This document shows positions 46,983-56,907 of a stretch of DNA of 64,000 nucleotides, piece after piece. How positions within the stretch are numbered: position 1 is the first letter of the stretch; each line of letters begins with the position of its first letter. The notes below the pieces were generated by a model that searched no databases, was not told the DNA's origin, and worked only from the letters and a program-made list of their open reading frames with translations. Both the position numbers and the translations under genes were made by a program. This stretch comes from Methanolinea sp. Its GTDB lineage: Archaea > Halobacteriota > Methanomicrobia > Methanomicrobiales > Methanospirillaceae. Location of the stretch: NCBI GenBank assembly GCA_024518585.1, contig JANIHI010000006.1:1-64000 (forward strand), read 5' to 3'.

Positions 46983-47013
46983 TTTTCTGCCTCGAATAAG
47001 TATATAGGGAAAA

Positions 47014-47532
47014 ATGTCTATAAAGATGTTTGCGACGAGTATGCAGTGCGAAATGTGCGGTGGCAGGATCCACGGCAATCCAAAGACTATTCGTGTGGAA
47101 GGGGCAGTCCTCGAGGTCTGTGCCCAGTGCGCCCGGTATGGGACGGAGGTGCAGGCACCCCAAAAGCCCGGGCCACGTGCAGGCGCTGTACCCCGCGCGC
47201 CTGTGGCAGGCACCCAAAGGAGGAAAAAGGATGTTTTCGACCTGATCGAGGGCGAAATCGTGGAGGATTACGGGGAAAGGATCCGCAATGCCCGCATGGA
47301 GAGGGGCTGGTCACAAAAGGAACTCGCATTGCAGCTCAAGGAGAAAGAACTCCTTATCAAGAAGATCGAGAAGGGAGACCTCATCCCTGAGGATGACGTG
47401 CGCCGGAAGCTCGAAAAGGCACTGAATATCCGGTTGATAGACTCGCCTGACGAGGAATCTGCGAAGAAGACCGGGGGAAAGGTTGTCCCCACCCTCGGCG
47501 ACGTGATCTCCCTCAAGAAGATCAAAAAGTGA
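47014..47532 (+). CDS. Archaeal multiprotein bridging factor 1-like transcription factor
   Basis: [34 protein letters not shown] zinc ribbon + [55 protein letters not shown]. Start could be 47026 or 47041. Confidence 0.9.
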
Positions 47533-47581
47533 TGCTTTTCCCCGGTGGGAGTTCCCGGGACTACCCTCCCTGTCCCGTCAT

Positions 47582-47590
47582 GTTTATATA
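47582..47590 (+). promoter_or_regulatory. TATA-like box for the aromatic operon leader
   Basis: gtttatatag, centred ~30 bp upstream of ATG 47616. Confidence 0.55.
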
Positions 47591-47615
47591 GACATTCCAC
47601 CAACATCTTTTCTTA

Positions 47616-47663
47616 ATGCTGGGTGAGTGTTTTTTCGCCGGTGAGGGTCTTTATCTTTACTAG
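47616..47663 (+). CDS. Candidate aromatic-rich leader peptide MLGECFFAGEGLYLY
   Basis: ATG CTG GGT GAG TGT TTT TTC GCC GGT GAG GGT CTT TAT CTT TAC TAG; 4 of 15 residues are Phe/Tyr; ~160 nt upstream of the aromatic operon. Confidence 0.5.
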   Translation: MLGECFFAGEGLYLY

Positions 47664-47770
47664 CAACGTCTCTTGCCCGTGCATTGGTACGCCTGTTCTC
47701 GTGTGGCCTTTGAAGGGAGCGGAGGCTTTCTTCGCGGACTGCACGTATTGTGGCTATTTTAGGTATTTTA

Positions 47771-47792
47771 GCTGAGTCCATCAGCCGTTTTT
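47771..47792 (+). terminator. Hairpin plus T5 tract in the aromatic operon leader
   Basis: GCTGA-GTCCA-TCAGC-CG-TTTTT, about 30 nt before the first structural gene. Confidence 0.5.
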
Positions 47793-47823
47793 GGTAAATG
47801 CGCTGCATGGATGGGAGTTTACA

Positions 47824-48624
47824 ATGAGAGGAAAAGAAATTCGCCTGGAACGTATCATGGACCGGAACACCGGCAAGACCATCATCGTCCCCATGGACCA
47901 CGGGGTCACAAGCGGGCCGATAGAGGGCTTAATCGACCTTGGACGTGCCGTTGACCTTGTGGCAGAAGGGGGTGCAAACGCCGTGCTCGGCCATATCGGG
48001 CTCTCGCTGCACGGCCACAGGAGGAGCGGGCGGGACATCGGGCTCATCCTCCACCTCTCGGCGAGCACGTCGATCGGTCCGGACCCGAACGAGAAGGTCC
48101 TTGTCAACACCGTGACCAACGCCCTCCGGATGGGGGCCGATGCCGTCTCGATCCACGTGAACATCGGGGCCGACTCCGAGGCACGGATGCTTGCCGACCT
48201 CGGGCGTGTCGCCATTGACTGCATGGAATGGGGAATGCCCCTCCTCGCCATGATGTATCCCCGGGGGAGGAAGATCGAGAACGAGCAGGCAGTCAGTCAC
48301 GTGAGCCTTGCCGCCCGGGTGGCGGCGGAACTGGGGGCCGACATCGTCAAGACAGTCTACACCGGTGACCCGGACAGCTTTCGGGAGGTGACGCGGGGCT
48401 GCCCAGTCCCTGTCGTTGTTGCCGGGGGGAGCAGGACGAGTGACAGGGCCACCCTCGAGCTGATCGAGGGGGCCATGGAAGGAGGTGCTGCCGGGATCTC
48501 CATCGGGAGAAACGCCTTCCAGCACCCGGCACCCGACCGTTTCGTCGCAGCGGCCGCCATGATCGTGCACCACGGGCACTCGGCAGAAGAGGCATACAGG
48601 ACACTCCAGGAGGAGAGGAAATGA
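47824..48624 (+). CDS. 2-amino-3,7-dideoxy-D-threo-hept-6-ulosonate synthase-like (class I FBP-aldolase fold), copy 1
   Basis: [37 protein letters not shown] ... [18 protein letters not shown]; located in shikimate operon. Confidence 0.88.
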
Positions 48625-49406
48625 TAGGAAAAGAGATCCGCATTGAACGCATCATGGACCGCAACACGGGCCGGTCCGTTATCGTGCCCATGGACCACGG
48701 GTTCACACTGGGCCAGATCGAGGGATTGAAGGACATGACAAAGACGATCTCAGAGGTGAGCGAGGGCGGGGCAAACGCCATCGTGCTCCACAAGGGGATC
48801 GTCAAGAGGGGGCACCGTCGACGGGGGAGGGATATCGGGCTGATTGTCCACCTCTCGGGGAGCACGTCCCTGAACCCTGATCCCAACGATAAGGTCCTTG
48901 TCTGCACGGTCGAGGAGGCAATAGCCCTCGGGGCCGATGCGGTCTCGATCCATATCAATCTCGGGGCCCCCAACGAGTCACGGATGCTGGAGTCGGCAGG
49001 GATGGTCGTCAAGGACTGCAACCGGTGGGGGATACCTCTCCTCGTCATGATCTACCCGCGGGGCAAGGGAGTGGACCCCACCTCACCGGCGACTGTCGGC
49101 CACTGTGTCCGCGTCGCCGAGGAGCTGGGTGCAGACCTGATCAAGACAAACTACACGGGGGACCCGAAGTCTTTCGGTGAGATCTGCTCGGCCTGTTCCG
49201 TCCCGGTCTTCATCGCCGGCGGGGAGAAGGCAGGGGACCTTGAAACGCTCACGGTCATCAGGGACTCGGTCCGGGCGGGCGGTGCTGGTGTGTGCGTGGG
49301 CCGCAACGCCTTCCAGCGGGAGAACACCCGGGCATTCGTCGAGGCCCTCTGCAAGGTCGTCCACGAGGAGATGGACCCCAAAGAGGCGCTCCGGGGGTTG
49401 GGATGA
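48621..49406 (+). CDS. 2-amino-3,7-dideoxy-D-threo-hept-6-ulosonate synthase-like, copy 2
   Basis: [37 protein letters not shown] ... [22 protein letters not shown]; 4-bp overlap with copy 1. Confidence 0.9.
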
Positions 49407-50389
49407 AGGAGTTCTGGGTGGATGCCCGGCCTTTTCGCAAGGAGATCGCGACGGCTGCACTGGAATCGGGGGCTGACACGATCGTTGCAGACTCGTGCCA
49501 GCCGGTAAAAGCGCTCGGGAGGGTGAGGGTCGTTGCCCCCGACGGGGACCTCGTCATGGGCCGGGACGTCTTTGAGGTGCACATCACCGACAAGCGGAGC
49601 GAGGAGGAGGCAGCAGGAAGGGCCCGGCAGGGGTACGTCATCGTCGATGCCGGTGACTGGACGGTCATCCCGCTCGAGAACCTCGTGGCCCAGGCAGACC
49701 GGATCATCGCGCGCGTAACGAACCCCGAAGAAGCCTCGCTTGCCCTCCAGGTCCTGGAAAAGGGAGTGGCAGGGGTCCTCCTCGCGACGGATGATCCCGC
49801 GCTGATCAAGGAGACAGGGGCCCTCATGCACCAGGGCGGGGAGAGGTTTGCGATAGTCCCCTTCAGGATCACGGCTATCCGTCCCGCGGGTATGGGTGAC
49901 CGGGTCTGCGTGGACACCTGCACGCTCCTCTCTGAGGGGGAAGGGCTCCTCGTCGGAAATACCTCGCGTGCCTTTCTCCTTGTCCATGCAGAAACACTCG
50001 AAAACCCGTACGTGGCCCCCCGCCCGTTCCGTGTCAATGCCGGGGCGGTCCATGCCTACGTCCTCTCGGCCGGGGGGAAGACCTCCTACCTTTCGGACCT
50101 TTCCGCGGGCGACAGGGTCCTCGTCGCAGCGAGCGATGGCGCTGCACGCGAGGTGACCGTGGGGCGTGTCAAGATCGAAAAAAGGCCGCTCCTCCTCGTG
50201 GAGGCAGAGGCTGACGGGGTCCCCTGCAGCCTGATCCTCCAGAATGCAGAGACGATACGGCTTGTCGCAGAGGACGGCTCTGCACGGTCCGTCGTTGACC
50301 TCGCACCGGGCGATACCGTGATCGGGTGCCTGAAGGAGGCCGGCAGGCACTTCGGGATGGCCGTGCGGGAGAGTATCGTGGAGAAGTGA
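49403..50389 (+). CDS. aroB': 3-dehydroquinate synthase II
   Basis: [31 protein letters not shown] ... GYVIVDAGDWTVIPLENLVAQ. Confidence 0.93.
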   Translation: MKEFWVDARPFRKEIATAALESGADTIVADSCQPVKALGRVRVVAPDGDLVMGRDVFEVHITDKRSEEEAAGRARQGYVIVDAGDWTVIPLENLVAQADRIIARVTNPEEASLALQVLEKGVAGVLLATDDPALIKETGALMHQGGERFAIVPFRITAIRPAGMGDRVCVDTCTLLSEGEGLLVGNTSRAFLLVHAETLENPYVAPRPFRVNAGAVHAYVLSAGGKTSYLSDLSAGDRVLVAASDGAAREVTVGRVKIEKRPLLLVEAEADGVPCSLILQNAETIRLVAEDGSARSVVDLAPGDTVIGCLKEAGRHFGMAVRESIVEK

Positions 50390-50395
50390 TTCCCC

Positions 50396-51220
50396 TTGAG
50401 GGTCGGAATCATCGGCGGTACCGGCAAGATGGGGACCTTCTTCCGGGCCGTGTTTGAAAAGGCGGGCTGCGAGGTCTGGGTCTCGGGAAGAGAGACTCCC
50501 TGCCGGGCAGAAGACATTGCACAAAACTGCACCGTGGTGATGGTCTCGGTCCCCATCCGGGAGACGGTCGCGGTCATCGAGCGGATAACACCCCTCCTTT
50601 CAGAAGACCAGCTCGTCTGCGATATTACATCCCTGAAGGTGGCACCGGTCAGTGCCATGCTCGCGTCACGGGCAAAGGTGATCGGGCTCCATCCCATGTT
50701 CGGCCCGACGGTCAAGGATCTTGCCGGGCAGACGATCATTGCAACCCCCGCCCGGTGCGACAGGGAGACGCAGGAAGAGATCCTCGGGGTATTCCGCTCG
50801 CAGGGAGCCCGCATTACCATCACGACCCCGGAGGACCACGACCGGGTCATGGCAGTCGTCCAGGGGCTCACCCACTATGTCACCCTCGGGGTCGCCGAGA
50901 CCATGCGGAGGCTCGGGCTCACTCCCCGCGAGACGCTGGACTTCATGAGCCCCATCTACCAGATCGAGATGTGCCTCGTGGGCCGCCTCCTCTCCCAGGA
51001 CCCCTCCCTCTACGCCGATATCCTCCAGCTCAATCCGCACGTCCCCCCCGTACTGGCCGCGTGCGAGGACTCGTTCGCTACCCTCAGGCAGGCCATCGAG
51101 GGGGGAGATCCGGGTAGCTTCGTGGAGATTTTCCGGGACAATACCCGGAATTTCGGCGACTACTGCGAGAGGGCCGCAACAGAATCTGACATGCTGATCG
51201 CTGCGATGGTGGGGAAATGA
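50396..51220 (+). CDS. tyrA: Prephenate dehydrogenase (TTG start)
   Basis: MRVGIIGGTGKMGTFFRAVFEKAGCEVWVSGR; GLHPMFGPTVKDLAGQTIIATP. Confidence 0.92.
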   Translation: MRVGIIGGTGKMGTFFRAVFEKAGCEVWVSGRETPCRAEDIAQNCTVVMVSVPIRETVAVIERITPLLSEDQLVCDITSLKVAPVSAMLASRAKVIGLHPMFGPTVKDLAGQTIIATPARCDRETQEEILGVFRSQGARITITTPEDHDRVMAVVQGLTHYVTLGVAETMRRLGLTPRETLDFMSPIYQIEMCLVGRLLSQDPSLYADILQLNPHVPPVLAACEDSFATLRQAIEGGDPGSFVEIFRDNTRNFGDYCERAATESDMLIAAMVGK

Positions 51221-52017
51221 GAGTATTTTCCCTCGGTCCCGAGGGCACTTTCAGCCACGAGCTGGGCTGGAGGTTGTTTGGTGATGCCGTCACTCTGGTT
51301 CCCACGATACGACGTATCTTTGAGGCCGTGGAGAGGGGAGAGGGGAACGGGCTCATACCGCTCGAGAACAGCGAAGCAGGGGGTGTCGGTGCCTCCCTGG
51401 ACGGTCTCCTTTCCCACGACGTCTGGATTACCGGCGAGGCCACCATGCCCATCCACCATTACCTCGTCTCCCTCGTCCCCCTCGAAGAAGCTGACGTCCT
51501 CTACGTCCATCCCCAGACCCACGAGCAGTGCAGCGATCTCATCGACTCCCTCGAGGTCCCGGTTGTCCACACATCGAGCAACGCCCAGAGTGCCCGGGAG
51601 CTCCTGAAGTCCGGGAAGGGCGCCGCAATCGTCTCCCTCCTGACTGCCCGCCTCTGCCACCTCCCCGTCAGGAGGTCCTGCGTGGAGAACAACCCCCAGA
51701 ACGTGACGCGGTTCGTGACGATCTCGTGCCACCCCTATAGCGGTCCCGACGCGGTCAAGGGGAGTATCATCATCGACCCGCGCGAGGACAGGGCAGGTCT
51801 CCTGCATGACATCCTGGGAGTTTTCTCACGGCGTAAGATCAACCTCACCCGGATCGAGTCCCGGCCGTCCAAGAGGGGCATGGGGTCCTACGTCTTCTTC
51901 CTGGACTACGAGTACTCGGGAGAGGACACCCGCTCCGTCCTCGGCGAGCTCGGGAAGATGACCTCTTTCCGGGATCTCGGGATTTACCCCGTGCTGGAGG
52001 TCCCCGAATGGAAGTGA
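51217..52017 (+). CDS. pheA: Prephenate dehydratase with C-terminal ACT domain
   Basis: FSLGPEGTFSHELGWRLFG; GLIPLENSEAGGV; NVTRFVTIS; ACT-like RAGLLHDILGVFSRRKINLTRIESRPSKRGMGSYVFFLDYE. Confidence 0.94.
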   Translation: MRVFSLGPEGTFSHELGWRLFGDAVTLVPTIRRIFEAVERGEGNGLIPLENSEAGGVGASLDGLLSHDVWITGEATMPIHHYLVSLVPLEEADVLYVHPQTHEQCSDLIDSLEVPVVHTSSNAQSARELLKSGKGAAIVSLLTARLCHLPVRRSCVENNPQNVTRFVTISCHPYSGPDAVKGSIIIDPREDRAGLLHDILGVFSRRKINLTRIESRPSKRGMGSYVFFLDYEYSGEDTRSVLGELGKMTSFRDLGIYPVLEVPEWK

Positions 52018-53276
52018 CCCTCCGGAGGGCAGGGCCGGTGGACTGCACGTTCACTGCACCACCTTCCAAGAGCTTCACGCACCGTGCCCTCGTTGCAGCC
52101 TCGCTGGCAGAGGGGACCTCGACCCTGGTCGACCCCCTGGAGTCGGACGATACCGCGGTCACCCGTCGCTCGCTCTCCTCCCTTGGGGCAGTCATCGGGA
52201 GAACCAAAGGGGGATACGTGGTCAGGGGCACGGGGGGTGTCCTCACCTGCGCAGGGGGGACCGTCATCGACGTCGGTGACTCGGGGACGAGCATGAGGCT
52301 GCTTGCTTCCATCGCCCTGCTCTGCGGAAAACCTGTCGTTCTGACAGGTTCAGCCCGGATGAAGGAGAGACCAATCGGTCCCCTTGTCCATGCCCTCCGG
52401 GCGCTCGGCGGGACGGTGACGTACCGGGAGTCAGAGGGTTTCCCACCCATCGTGGTCAGCGGGGGACTGGCAGGGGGAGAGACGACCATCGATGCACAGG
52501 TAAGCAGCCAGTTCGTCTCCTCCATCCTCCTGGCCTCTCCGTATGCGAAGGAGGATGTCAGCATCAGCGTCCTTTGGAAAGTTGCGTCCCCCTCCTACAT
52601 CGACATCACCCTTGCCGTGATGGATGAGTTTGGTGTCCCCGTCACGAGGGAGGGATACAGGCACTTTACAGTTCCTGCCGGTCGCCGGTACCGCGCGAAA
52701 CGGTACGCTATCGAGGGGGACTACTCGTCTGCCTCGTACTTCTTTGCCCTCGCCGCCCTCTGCCGCGGGAGGGTGAGGGTCAAAAACCTCAACCCGGATT
52801 CGTGCCAGGGCGACCGTGCATTCCTCGGCTACCTCCGGGAGATGGGGTGCGGGGTGCGGACCGGGGCAGACTGCGTGGAAGTCTCGTGCGAGGGGGACCT
52901 GCGGGGAATTGAGGCTGACATGTCTTCTTCTCCGGATACCGTCCAGACACTCTGCATGGTCGCAGCCCGGGCAGAAGGCCCCACGCGGATAACCGGCGTC
53001 GGCCACCTCCGGTTCAAGGAGAGTGACAGGTTACGTGAGACTGCCCGCCTCCTCTCGGTCCTTGGGGGAGATGCTCACGTCGCGGGAGACGAGATCCTCA
53101 TCAATCCCTGCCCGCTCCATGGGGGGACGATCGACCCGGGAAATGATCACCGCACGGCGATGAGTTTTGCCGTCCTGGGACTGGCGATGGGAAATGTAAA
53201 GATACAACACGCGGAATGTGTCAGTAAATCGTTCCCGGGGTTCTGGGAACAGCTCGCGTGCCAGGGGCTCGTATGA
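52008..53276 (+). CDS. aroA: 3-phosphoshikimate 1-carboxyvinyltransferase
   Basis: PPSKSFTHRALVAASLAEGTS; IDVGDSGTSMRLL; KESDRLRETARLLSVLGG. Confidence 0.96.
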   Translation: MEVTLRRAGPVDCTFTAPPSKSFTHRALVAASLAEGTSTLVDPLESDDTAVTRRSLSSLGAVIGRTKGGYVVRGTGGVLTCAGGTVIDVGDSGTSMRLLASIALLCGKPVVLTGSARMKERPIGPLVHALRALGGTVTYRESEGFPPIVVSGGLAGGETTIDAQVSSQFVSSILLASPYAKEDVSISVLWKVASPSYIDITLAVMDEFGVPVTREGYRHFTVPAGRRYRAKRYAIEGDYSSASYFFALAALCRGRVRVKNLNPDSCQGDRAFLGYLREMGCGVRTGADCVEVSCEGDLRGIEADMSSSPDTVQTLCMVAARAEGPTRITGVGHLRFKESDRLRETARLLSVLGGDAHVAGDEILINPCPLHGGTIDPGNDHRTAMSFAVLGLAMGNVKIQHAECVSKSFPGFWEQLACQGLV

Positions 53277-54658
53277 AGGTTGTACTGACAGGTTTTCGGG
53301 GGACCGGCAAGACTGCAACCGGCCGGATCCTCGCCCGTCTCGGGGGGGTCCCGTTTTACGACACGGACGCAATGGTCGAGGAGCAGGCAAAGGCGTCGAT
53401 CCGGGAGATATTTTCCGTGGAAGGGGAGGAAGGGTTCCGCAAACGGGAGAGTGAGGTGATCGCGAACCTCCCCGAAGGTCCATGTGTCATTGCGACGGGT
53501 GGCGGGGCCGTCCTCCTGCCCGAGAACGTGGAGACCCTGCGGAGGGGACGGACAGTCTTCCTCCTCCAGGCCGATCCCCTGACGATCGAGAAGCGCATCC
53601 AGGACTCGACACGCCCGCCCCTGACACCCATGGGCCTGCGGGCCGAAATCCGGCACCTCCTCGCCCTCCGCAGGGATTCCTACCTGAGTGCTGCCGACGT
53701 GTGCGTGGATACGAGTGCACGGAGTGCCAACGAGGTCGCGATTCACATCAAGCGAATCCTGACCGAGGGCACTGTGCCGGCGGGGGAGGTCCGGAAGGCT
53801 TCCCGCGCGATCATGCTGTCGGGAATTCCAAAAGAAGAGGCCCTTGAGCTTGCCGGGAAGGCAGAGACATTCGAAGAGAACCCGCTCCTCCGCTTCTTTG
53901 GGATCGCGGGCTACCCCAGCCTCCACAGCCGGAGTCCCCCCCTCTTCCAGGGCCTCTTCTCCTACTTTGGGATCAACGCCTTCTACATCCGCTTCCACGA
54001 CCCTTCCCTCTCCCGCATCCTCGCGCTTGCGCGGGACCTCGACGCCCGGGGACTCTCTGTCACGATCCCCTTCAAGCAGGAGATCCTCTCGACCCTTGAC
54101 TACCAGGACCCCCACATGTCTGCGATCGGGGCATGTAACACGGTCCTGTTCTGCGGCGGGAAGTCGTATGGGTACAACACCGACTGGGTGGGAGTCAGGG
54201 AACCACTCGGGCACGCGAAGGGGAAAAGCGCCGTTGTCCTCGGTGCCGGTGGTGCTGCTGCAGCCGCCGCTTACGCGCTCCTCTCGCTGGACATGGACGT
54301 TACTGTCCTGAACAGGACCGTCGAGAAGGCAGAAACACTCGCGGGCCGGTTCGGGTGCGCATTCGGAAAGCTGGCGGATATCGACAGGATCCGGCCAGAG
54401 GTTGTCGTGAATGCGACATCGGTGGGAATGGAGCCAGACCAGGGCAGTCCGCTCACCCGCGACCAGCTCACACCGGGCATGACGATCTTTGACCTCGTGT
54501 ACACGCCGCCGGAGACCCCCCTAATCAGGATGGCGCGGCGCGCGGGGTGCACCGTGATCACAGGCAAGGAGATGTTCATCCGCCAGGCACGGGCCCAGTT
54601 CCGGCACTTCACAGGAATCGATGCTCCCCTCCACATGGTCAGGGAGATGGTGGGGTGA
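53273..54658 (+). CDS. Fused shikimate kinase (P-loop AroK type) - shikimate dehydrogenase (AroE)
   Basis: N-term [38 protein letters not shown] ... [18 protein letters not shown]-term [35 protein letters not shown] ... [19 protein letters not shown] ... [15 protein letters not shown]. Confidence 0.95.
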
Positions 54659-55680
54659 ACACGTTTGGAAAAAACTTCCGGGTGACCACGTTCGGGGAGA
54701 GTCACGGCCCTGCCCTCGGCGCGGTCATCGACGGGTGCCCGCCCGGTATTGAACTCTCGGAAGGGGATATCGATCCCCTCCTGCGAAGGAGGCGGCCGGG
54801 AGAGCATCCCCTCTCCTCGCAGCGCAAGGAAGAGGACCGGGTCGAGATACTGTCCGGGGTCTTCAAGGGAAGGACGACGGGGACACCCATTGCCCTCCTC
54901 GTCAGGAACGTGGATGCCCGTTCCTCTGACTACGATGCAATCGCGGACGTTTTCCGGCCTGGTCACGCGGACTATACCTACCATGCAAAGTACGGGATCC
55001 GCGACTACCGTGGAGGGGGGCGGAGCTCGGGGCGGGAGACCGTCTCGCGGGTCGCCGCAGGGGCCGTTGCCCTGAAGATCCTGGGCCAACGGGGCATCTC
55101 CATCCGGAGCAGGGTCGCCGAGGTCCACGGCGCATCCACGCCGGAAGGTATAGGGAGGGAGATTGCACAGGCCGCCCTTGCGAACGACTCCGTGGGTGGT
55201 ATCCTGGAACTGGTCGCAAACGGGTGTCCCCCCGGTCTTGGTGATCCTGTCTTTGGGAAACTTGACGCCCTCATCGCGATGGCCATGATGAGTATCGGGG
55301 CAGTCAAGGGGGTGGAGATAGGGGACGGCTTTGCCGCAGCCCGGCTGAGGGGCAGCGAGCACAACGACCAGATGGACAGCACCGGTTTTCTCTCGAACCA
55401 TGCCGGCGGCATCCTGGGCGGGATCAGCACCGGCGCAGACATCATTGTCCGCATCGCCGTCAAGCCGACCCCCACGATCTCACGCGAGCAGAAGACGATC
55501 GACTGCCAGGGGAGGGAACGCGTCATCTCGGTATCGGGTCGCCACGACGTGTGTATCGTCCCGCGGATCGGCCCGGTCGCTGAGGCAATGCTTGCCCTCG
55601 TGCTCGTGGACGCCCTCCTCGAACAGGAAAAAATCAGGGCCTGGCTTCCCGGCCATGAGAATAACATCTATCCCGGATAG
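54655..55680 (+). CDS. aroC: Chorismate synthase (GTG start)
   Basis: [74 protein letters not shown]. Confidence 0.96.
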
Positions 55681-56244: not shown

Positions 56245-56907
56245 TCAGGCGTCCACCCGGGTGGCGATGACATCTTCCCCGGCGAGTACGCCGAGGACGT
56301 CCCGGGCCACCCTGACGTGGACCTGCCCCTCTGCGGTGGGGTGCCCGGCATGGCAGAAGAGGAACGATGAACCAAAGAGGGGGAGGATCATCCGGGCGAA
56401 GGAAAAACGGGATCCCATGATGCTCGTGATCACCGGTTTTTTGGCATGCAGGGTGAACGAGAGGAGGGAGAGGACATCGTCCCCCGACTGGGGGGAGACA
56501 ACGATCTTGGGGATGTCTCCAAAAGAGGCAAGGTCGGTGAGCAGGGCGGCAAGGGAAGAAGGGTCCGGCATCGAGGGTGTGTGGTAGGACGCAATGATGG
56601 TCTTTTTCCCGTCCCGCACGGCATTCCCAAGGGCCCGGAACCTCCCCTCGATGTCGACGTAAGTGGCATAGGGGAGGAAGGCCTGGAGCCTTTCCCACCA
56701 CTCGCCCGGGGAACCGGAAAACCGCCCCCCCTCATCCCTGCTGCGGAGCGTGAGGATGAGGGGGATATCCAGGGACTCAAGCGCTGCCAGGGCATCATTT
56801 TCCGCAAGACTGTCAGCAAGGTCCAGGCGCAGCTCGATGATGTCGGCTCCGCTTTCGCGGGCAGCCGGGATGAGCCGCGTGTCCGGGACCGAGGCCACGA
56901 ACTGCAT
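56245..56907 (-). CDS. aroD: 3-dehydroquinate dehydratase type I
   Basis: GADIIELRLDLADSL; KKTIIASYHTPSMPD; PVITSIMGSRFSFARMILPLFGSSFLFCH. Confidence 0.9.
   Translation of the reverse strand: MQFVASVPDTRLIPAARESGADIIELRLDLADSLAENDALAALESLDIPLILTLRSRDEGGRFSGSPGEWWERLQAFLPYATYVDIEGRFRALGNAVRDGKKTIIASYHTPSMPDPSSLAALLTDLASFGDIPKIVVSPQSGDDVLSLLSFTLHAKKPVITSIMGSRFSFARMILPLFGSSFLFCHAGHPTAEGQVHVRVARDVLGVLAGEDVIATRVDA

Follow-up and report, generated by a model that had tools for sequence, protein, structure and literature searches.

Ribosome-mediated attenuation is a textbook mechanism of bacteria, and the locus described here raises the question of whether an archaeal operon for aromatic amino acid biosynthesis is controlled in this manner. 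The locus lies in a stretch of 64,000 nucleotides (nt) from Methanolinea sp. (contig JANIHI010000006.1, positions 1 to 64,000; hereafter the window), in which an earlier reading made from the letters alone (the sequence-only reading) had proposed that ribosomes stalling in a 15-codon open reading frame (ORF) decide between termination and read-through ahead of the operon. Comparison with related genomes strongly supports ribosome-mediated attenuation of this operon, whereas the proposed choice between a terminator and read-through is not supported. We consider it probable, from the comparative sequence evidence, that ribosome-mediated attenuation acts in the 5' leader of this operon, through a hairpin at the Shine-Dalgarno (SD) site of the first gene and with translation as the controlled step. 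The features concerned are collected in Table 1.

We compared the regions 5' of the first operon gene from 61 Methanomicrobiales genomes, of which the 13 in genus g1 constitute the window's genus. An equivalent leader ORF was recovered in 58 of the 61; the three genomes without it (G013, G029 and G056) also lack the first copy of 2-amino-3,7-dideoxy-D-threo-hept-6-ulosonate (ADH) synthase, their best matches reaching only ~1e-88 to 1e-90. The leader is likewise present in most of 80 named records of Methanolinea, Methanoregula, Methanoculleus, Methanofollis and Methanospirillum (L135, L164 and L165 were set aside as unclear), and no such leader was found in 17 genomes from other Halobacteriota orders. 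In the window its peptide ends CTYCGYFRYFS directly before the stop codon, and the peptides of relatives end with YFGYFWYFN, SFFFSFYQFFWY or SYFYLFYFYFWF, among others.

Codons for Phe, Tyr and Trp (F/Y/W) are concentrated at this end of the leader. Across 110 distinct leaders they account for 53.5% of the 14 codons before the stop, whereas the two remaining frames give 10.7% and 19.6%. Their mean number in these 14 codons is 7.5, as opposed to 3.6 after dinucleotide shuffling (p<0.05 for 100 of these leaders). From codon -1 to codon -9, F/Y/W codons make up 52-81%, and beyond -15 they make up ~5-18%, the enrichment fading ~13 codons before the stop. Within the run the order of F/Y/W and the spacers drift but the run itself persists, which fits the sensing of codons rather than a fixed arrest peptide. 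The sequence-only reading had located the regulatory aromatic codons in the 15-codon ORF, which carries Phe-Phe and Tyr-Leu-Tyr. These codons turned out to belong to a conserved element with a second reading in the +1 frame, and it is in this second frame, ~110 nt downstream and adjoining the hairpin, that relatives keep their aromatic run. When the strict 5' motif alone was used to set the frame, the +1 frame was open to the same leader stop in 70/70 loci, with a median of 52 codons, whereas frames 0 and 2 closed at medians of 15 and 2 codons.

The hairpin holds a constant place with respect to both the leader and the gene. In 105 leaders its 5' arm begins at a median distance of 3 nt, counted from the stop codon's first base, and its 3' arm ends a median of 10 nt before the gene, and the mean z score of the hairpin is -2.05, compared with +0.16 for a segment further upstream in the leader. 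Control z scores upstream of other genes are -0.48 for trpE, -0.63 for leuA, +0.90 for hisG and -0.02 for ilvB. The hairpin sequence is wholly different between genera. Within the window's genus (13 sequences), compensatory changes affect both partners of three pairs, and 88.5% of cells are paired, compared with 33-45% when slid. The hairpin masks or abuts the SD site or the start codon in most families (not in g18, g23, g25 and g29), and in Methanoculleus and others the equivalent of the SD lies inside the stem. The leader ORF, the codon run and the hairpin are conserved together, and the combination is absent from the other amino acid genes tested.

These features suggest how the leader may act. 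The leader ORF begins close to the predicted mRNA 5' end, or at that end itself, and finishes with a run of Phe, Tyr and Trp codons; it would be translated before the operon, and its stop codon adjoins a hairpin whose 3' arm contains or touches the SD of the first gene. With aromatic aminoacyl-tRNAs in plentiful supply, ribosomes would clear the leader and the hairpin would limit initiation at the first gene. With aminoacyl-tRNAs scarce, ribosomes would wait on the aromatic codons beside the hairpin, and those pausing on the distal codons would lie next to or on its 5' arm; the RNA would then refold, the SD would be freed and the operon translated. Three parts of this scheme are what we infer from the arrangement: the stalling, the direction of the effect, and control of translation rather than of transcription. 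In models of family f4 and of the Methanoculleus-type family f5, forbidding base pairs where a ribosome would cover the last codons or the stop cuts the energy of opening the SD by ~2-3 kcal/mol, from ~5-6 to 2-3 kcal/mol. The modelled opening depends on ribosome position with a direction that differs between families, and both patterns, being thermodynamic estimates only, would be compatible with higher expression under starvation.

Several points weigh against this mechanism. The leader frame in the F/Y/W test was itself chosen for aromatic content, for which the frame check by motif alone provides the unbiased control. Ribosomes stalled early in the codon run would fall short of the hairpin. 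In the window's genus the SD adjoins the hairpin but lies outside the stem, and modelled SD opening there costs 4.4 kcal/mol with a ribosome at the stop and 2.6 kcal/mol with none or with one stalled, so that the switch logic in this genus may differ or may escape the model. A distance of ~100-230 nt separates the leader stop from the gene in the genera g18, g23, g25 and g29, for which blocking of the SD is therefore no simple explanation.

Members of two different families, L186 and L187 (g29) and L052 and L057 (g25), share the leader ending FWFRQ before the stop and a near-identical CTGCACC/GGTGCAG hairpin ~100-200 nt before the gene. This form suggests an older or transferred variant with another mode of action, and the controlled step may differ in g25 and g29, given their distant hairpin.

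Among the alternatives, transcriptional attenuation survives best, although we regard it as unlikely. Here the hairpin and a T tract would act as a conditional terminator, or loss of ribosome cover would permit U-tract/aCPSF1 termination within the leader, a mode of control in favour of which PMC7515710 is cited. The sequence-only reading had rested on such a terminator, and the GCTGA/TCAGC element with its T tract, GCTGAGTCCATCAGCCGTTTTT, is indeed present at 47771-47792; it is, however, part of a larger hairpin (47776-47812), and its five T residues (47788-47792) lie inside this hairpin rather than after it. A hairpin followed by a T tract is not a conserved feature of the leaders, as T runs of at least five occur in only 15 of 110 homologous regions. 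The distant hairpin of g25 and g29 is followed by T-rich sequence, as a terminator would be, whereas in most families the 3' arm is positioned at the SD. As the T tract of the window is inside the hairpin and is unconserved, translational attenuation is favoured over termination.

It is highly improbable that the leader instead encodes a functional small protein, for example a hydrophobic microprotein, next to which the hairpin would be incidental. Such a protein would suit the conserved N-terminal sequence VNVFSPVNVFI and the hydrophobic C-terminal end, but the length of the leader varies from ~35 to 75 codons among relatives, its middle part lacks conservation, the order of residues in the run drifts, and some lineages (Methanospirillum, L055) have lost the N-terminal motif and retained the run. 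The signal in the ratio of nonsynonymous to synonymous polymorphism (pN/pS) over the whole leader is also weak in the window's genus (0.68 vs 0.78 and 0.84), as expected if only an open frame and the codon run matter. Equally improbable is a leader that serves solely as a translation enhancer, by reinitiation at or coupling to the first gene and without amino acid sensing, since the median of 48 nt from leader stop to gene start would suit it but the cognate aromatic run, its confinement to the last ~13 codons and the hairpin would be left unexplained.

Translational attenuation through the long leader leaves the question of what the 15-codon ORF does, as it overlaps the leader start. It is present as the sequence-only reading had described it, reading MLGECFFAGEGLYLY to its stop, and the comparison bore out its conservation, since it is 15 codons long in 60 of 85 motif-bearing loci. 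Most upstream regions share an element beginning ATGNNNGGTGA, but the aromatic codons that relatives conserve are read in a frame shifted by +1 from that of this ORF. An exact match to the 5' element occurs once per genome, at the aro operon, in 42 of the 61 Methanomicrobiales and never in the reversed control, and this 5' feature is far beyond chance. Mean column entropies are 0.49, 0.12 and 0.58 at positions 0, 1 and 2 modulo 3. Variation thus falls in the third-position class of either frame but not in the class common to both, and frames 0 and +1 both look constrained. In L100, L107, L108, L144, L149 and Methanoregula loci an extra copy of an 18-nt unit beginning GTGAGTGT is found near the leader start, with both frames preserved. 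A duplex between the mRNA 5' end and a site ~58 nt further along is supported to some extent (z -6.0 in 85 loci, uncorrected for relatedness).

The 15-codon ORF may take part in regulation, and the constraint on frame 0 may reflect a +1 frameshift, competition between its start and the GTG, or a constraint on the RNA. It is tempting to speculate on a two-stage starvation sensor, although we consider this rather doubtful. Translation would begin leaderless at the AUG in frame 0; scarce Phe- or Tyr-tRNA would cause a +1 slip at YUU-UUY (Phe) or YUU-UAY (Tyr) into the leader, followed by stalling and opening of the operon, and with plentiful tRNA the ribosome would meet the frame-0 stop near codon 16 without reaching the leader. 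This idea is supported by frame-0 codons 7 and 13: virtually all aligned sites have TTY and TAY there, each after YTT. All variation in Phe7 and Tyr13 is synonymous, and the T required for slippage to UUU is invariant. Two further points favour the idea. Of the 88 loci in which the +1 frame extends to the run, 87 retain the frame-0 ATG, and in L043 and L044 (g28) the AUG frame enters the run directly, apparently by a 1-nt net deletion in the element. The ATG is itself in frame with the run in L022, L043, L044, L047, L051, L052, L054, L055 and L057. A simpler alternative is initiation in the +1 frame at the GTG (ATG in some Methanoregula), under which conservation of TTT in the +1 frame would alone produce much of the frame-0 pattern.

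Our survey of other amino acid operons was partial, covering trpE, leuA, ilvB and hisG. No consistent leader with Leu/Ile/Val or His codons was found at leuA, ilvB or hisG. A Trp leader on trpE was considered and rejected, as the conserved GGTGATGCCGGTGGA(A/C)TGG is better read as an SD followed by a start codon. In L071 (G000:C21) and its relatives L069-L083, a TATA-like sequence with TGTACA boxes lies 5' of trpE, as does this motif; the TGTACA boxes near the predicted trpE start suggest a TrpY-like repressor. In the window's genus a CTG occupies the position of the relatives' trpE ATG, possibly as a non-canonical start or because the start site differs.

The setting of the aro leader agrees largely with the sequence-only reading. 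The TATA-like box is present, although it begins one base later than the proposed 47582, and the first T of the box lies 29-36 nt from the ATG wherever a box is recognised in relatives. The first structural gene does have its ATG at 47824, and NCBIfam models, used to check the identities of the operon genes, agree with the predicted content of tyrA, pheA and the chorismate genes minus aroD, which lies elsewhere on the minus strand. The operon opens with two tandem ADH synthase paralogues (47824-48624 and 48621-49406) that are ~55% identical. The gene preceding the leader is aMBF1, and the nearest named relatives are mostly Methanolinea records, with 87-94% protein identity. No Rfam family matched positions 47000-48200 up to an E value of 5, and no tRNA-like element was found near the leader.

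Table 1. Features of the aro operon leader and its surroundings in the window
Feature	Position	Strand	Remarks
TATA box TTTATATA	47583..47590	+	ATG 47616 sits 33 nt past first T of box
Conserved 5' element ATGNNNGGTGRNYGYYTTTTYRCCNGTGRNNGYYTTTAYC	47616..47655	+	At predicted mRNA 5' end
15-codon ORF, frame 0	47616..47663	+	Possible leaderless upstream ORF, putative function; Phe7 kept as TTY, Tyr13 as TAY
Leader ORF VSVFSPVRVFIFTSNVSCPCIGTPVLVWPLKGAEAFFADCTYCGYFRYFS	47623..47775	+	Putative GTG start, TGA stop, 50 codons; +1 frame relative to 15-codon ORF
Candidate partner of mRNA 5' end, AUGCUGGG with CCCGUGCAU	47674..47685	+	Duplex test
Aromatic-rich leader end FFADCTYCGYFRYFS	47728..47772	+	Presumed sensor codons
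Hairpin 5' arm	47776..47790	+	Directly after leader stop
Hairpin 3' arm	47796..47812	+	Ends immediately 5' of SD
SD GGGAG of first structural gene	47813..47817	+	
First structural gene, ADH synthase	47824..48624	+	TIGR01949, 344 bits, above cut-off
Remaining operon: second ADH synthase, 3-dehydroquinate synthase II, tyrA, pheA, aroA, aroK-aroE fusion, aroC	48621..55680	+	
aroD	56245-56907	-	Separate from operon

The trpL, pheL and hisL attenuators of enterobacteria combine a run of end-product codons in a leader ORF with a regulatory hairpin that lies between this ORF and the first gene. The aro leader resembles them in pairing such a run with a hairpin ahead of the first gene. It differs from them in being archaeal, in having no conserved hairpin-T-tract terminator, in the position of its hairpin at the SD, in a run that mixes three aromatic amino acids and in a start no more than a few bases away from the predicted mRNA 5' end. 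In the ermC and cat translational attenuators of Gram-positive bacteria, a ribosome on the leader controls a hairpin that masks an SD and responds to an antibiotic through arrest; similarly, a ribosome on the aro leader would control a hairpin at the SD of the next gene, but in response to the supply of aminoacyl-tRNA rather than to an antibiotic. The LEU element 5' of actinobacterial leuA has a candidate leader peptide with a run of leucine codons and a structure that involves the SD (PMC1262725). In that element the codon run itself forms base pairs with the SD, in the stem at the base of a pseudoknot (PMC1262725), whereas the aro leader has a separate hairpin after the stop.

Described control of aromatic genes in archaea involves the TrpY repressor of Methanothermobacter and the activator TK0271 (Tar) of Thermococcus, and little is known of the control of archaeal Trp biosynthesis beyond TrpY (PMC6737238). 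In contrast to the aro leader, TrpY and TK0271 (Tar) are DNA-binding proteins that act at promoters, with no leader peptide. We found no archaeal case of attenuation or of a regulatory leader peptide in the literature searched, a provisional result as most subscription literature was not searchable, and the architecture of the aro leader thus provisionally represents a known type of mechanism in a new domain of life. The aro leader would also offer a tractable test of leader translation near archaeal mRNA 5' ends. It would fill a gap in the control of chorismate, Phe and Tyr synthesis in methanogens, for which we found only DNA-binding regulators of other lineages described. If the proposed mechanism is true, this order-wide case in methanogens would mean that archaea, too, sense amino acids via ribosome stalling.
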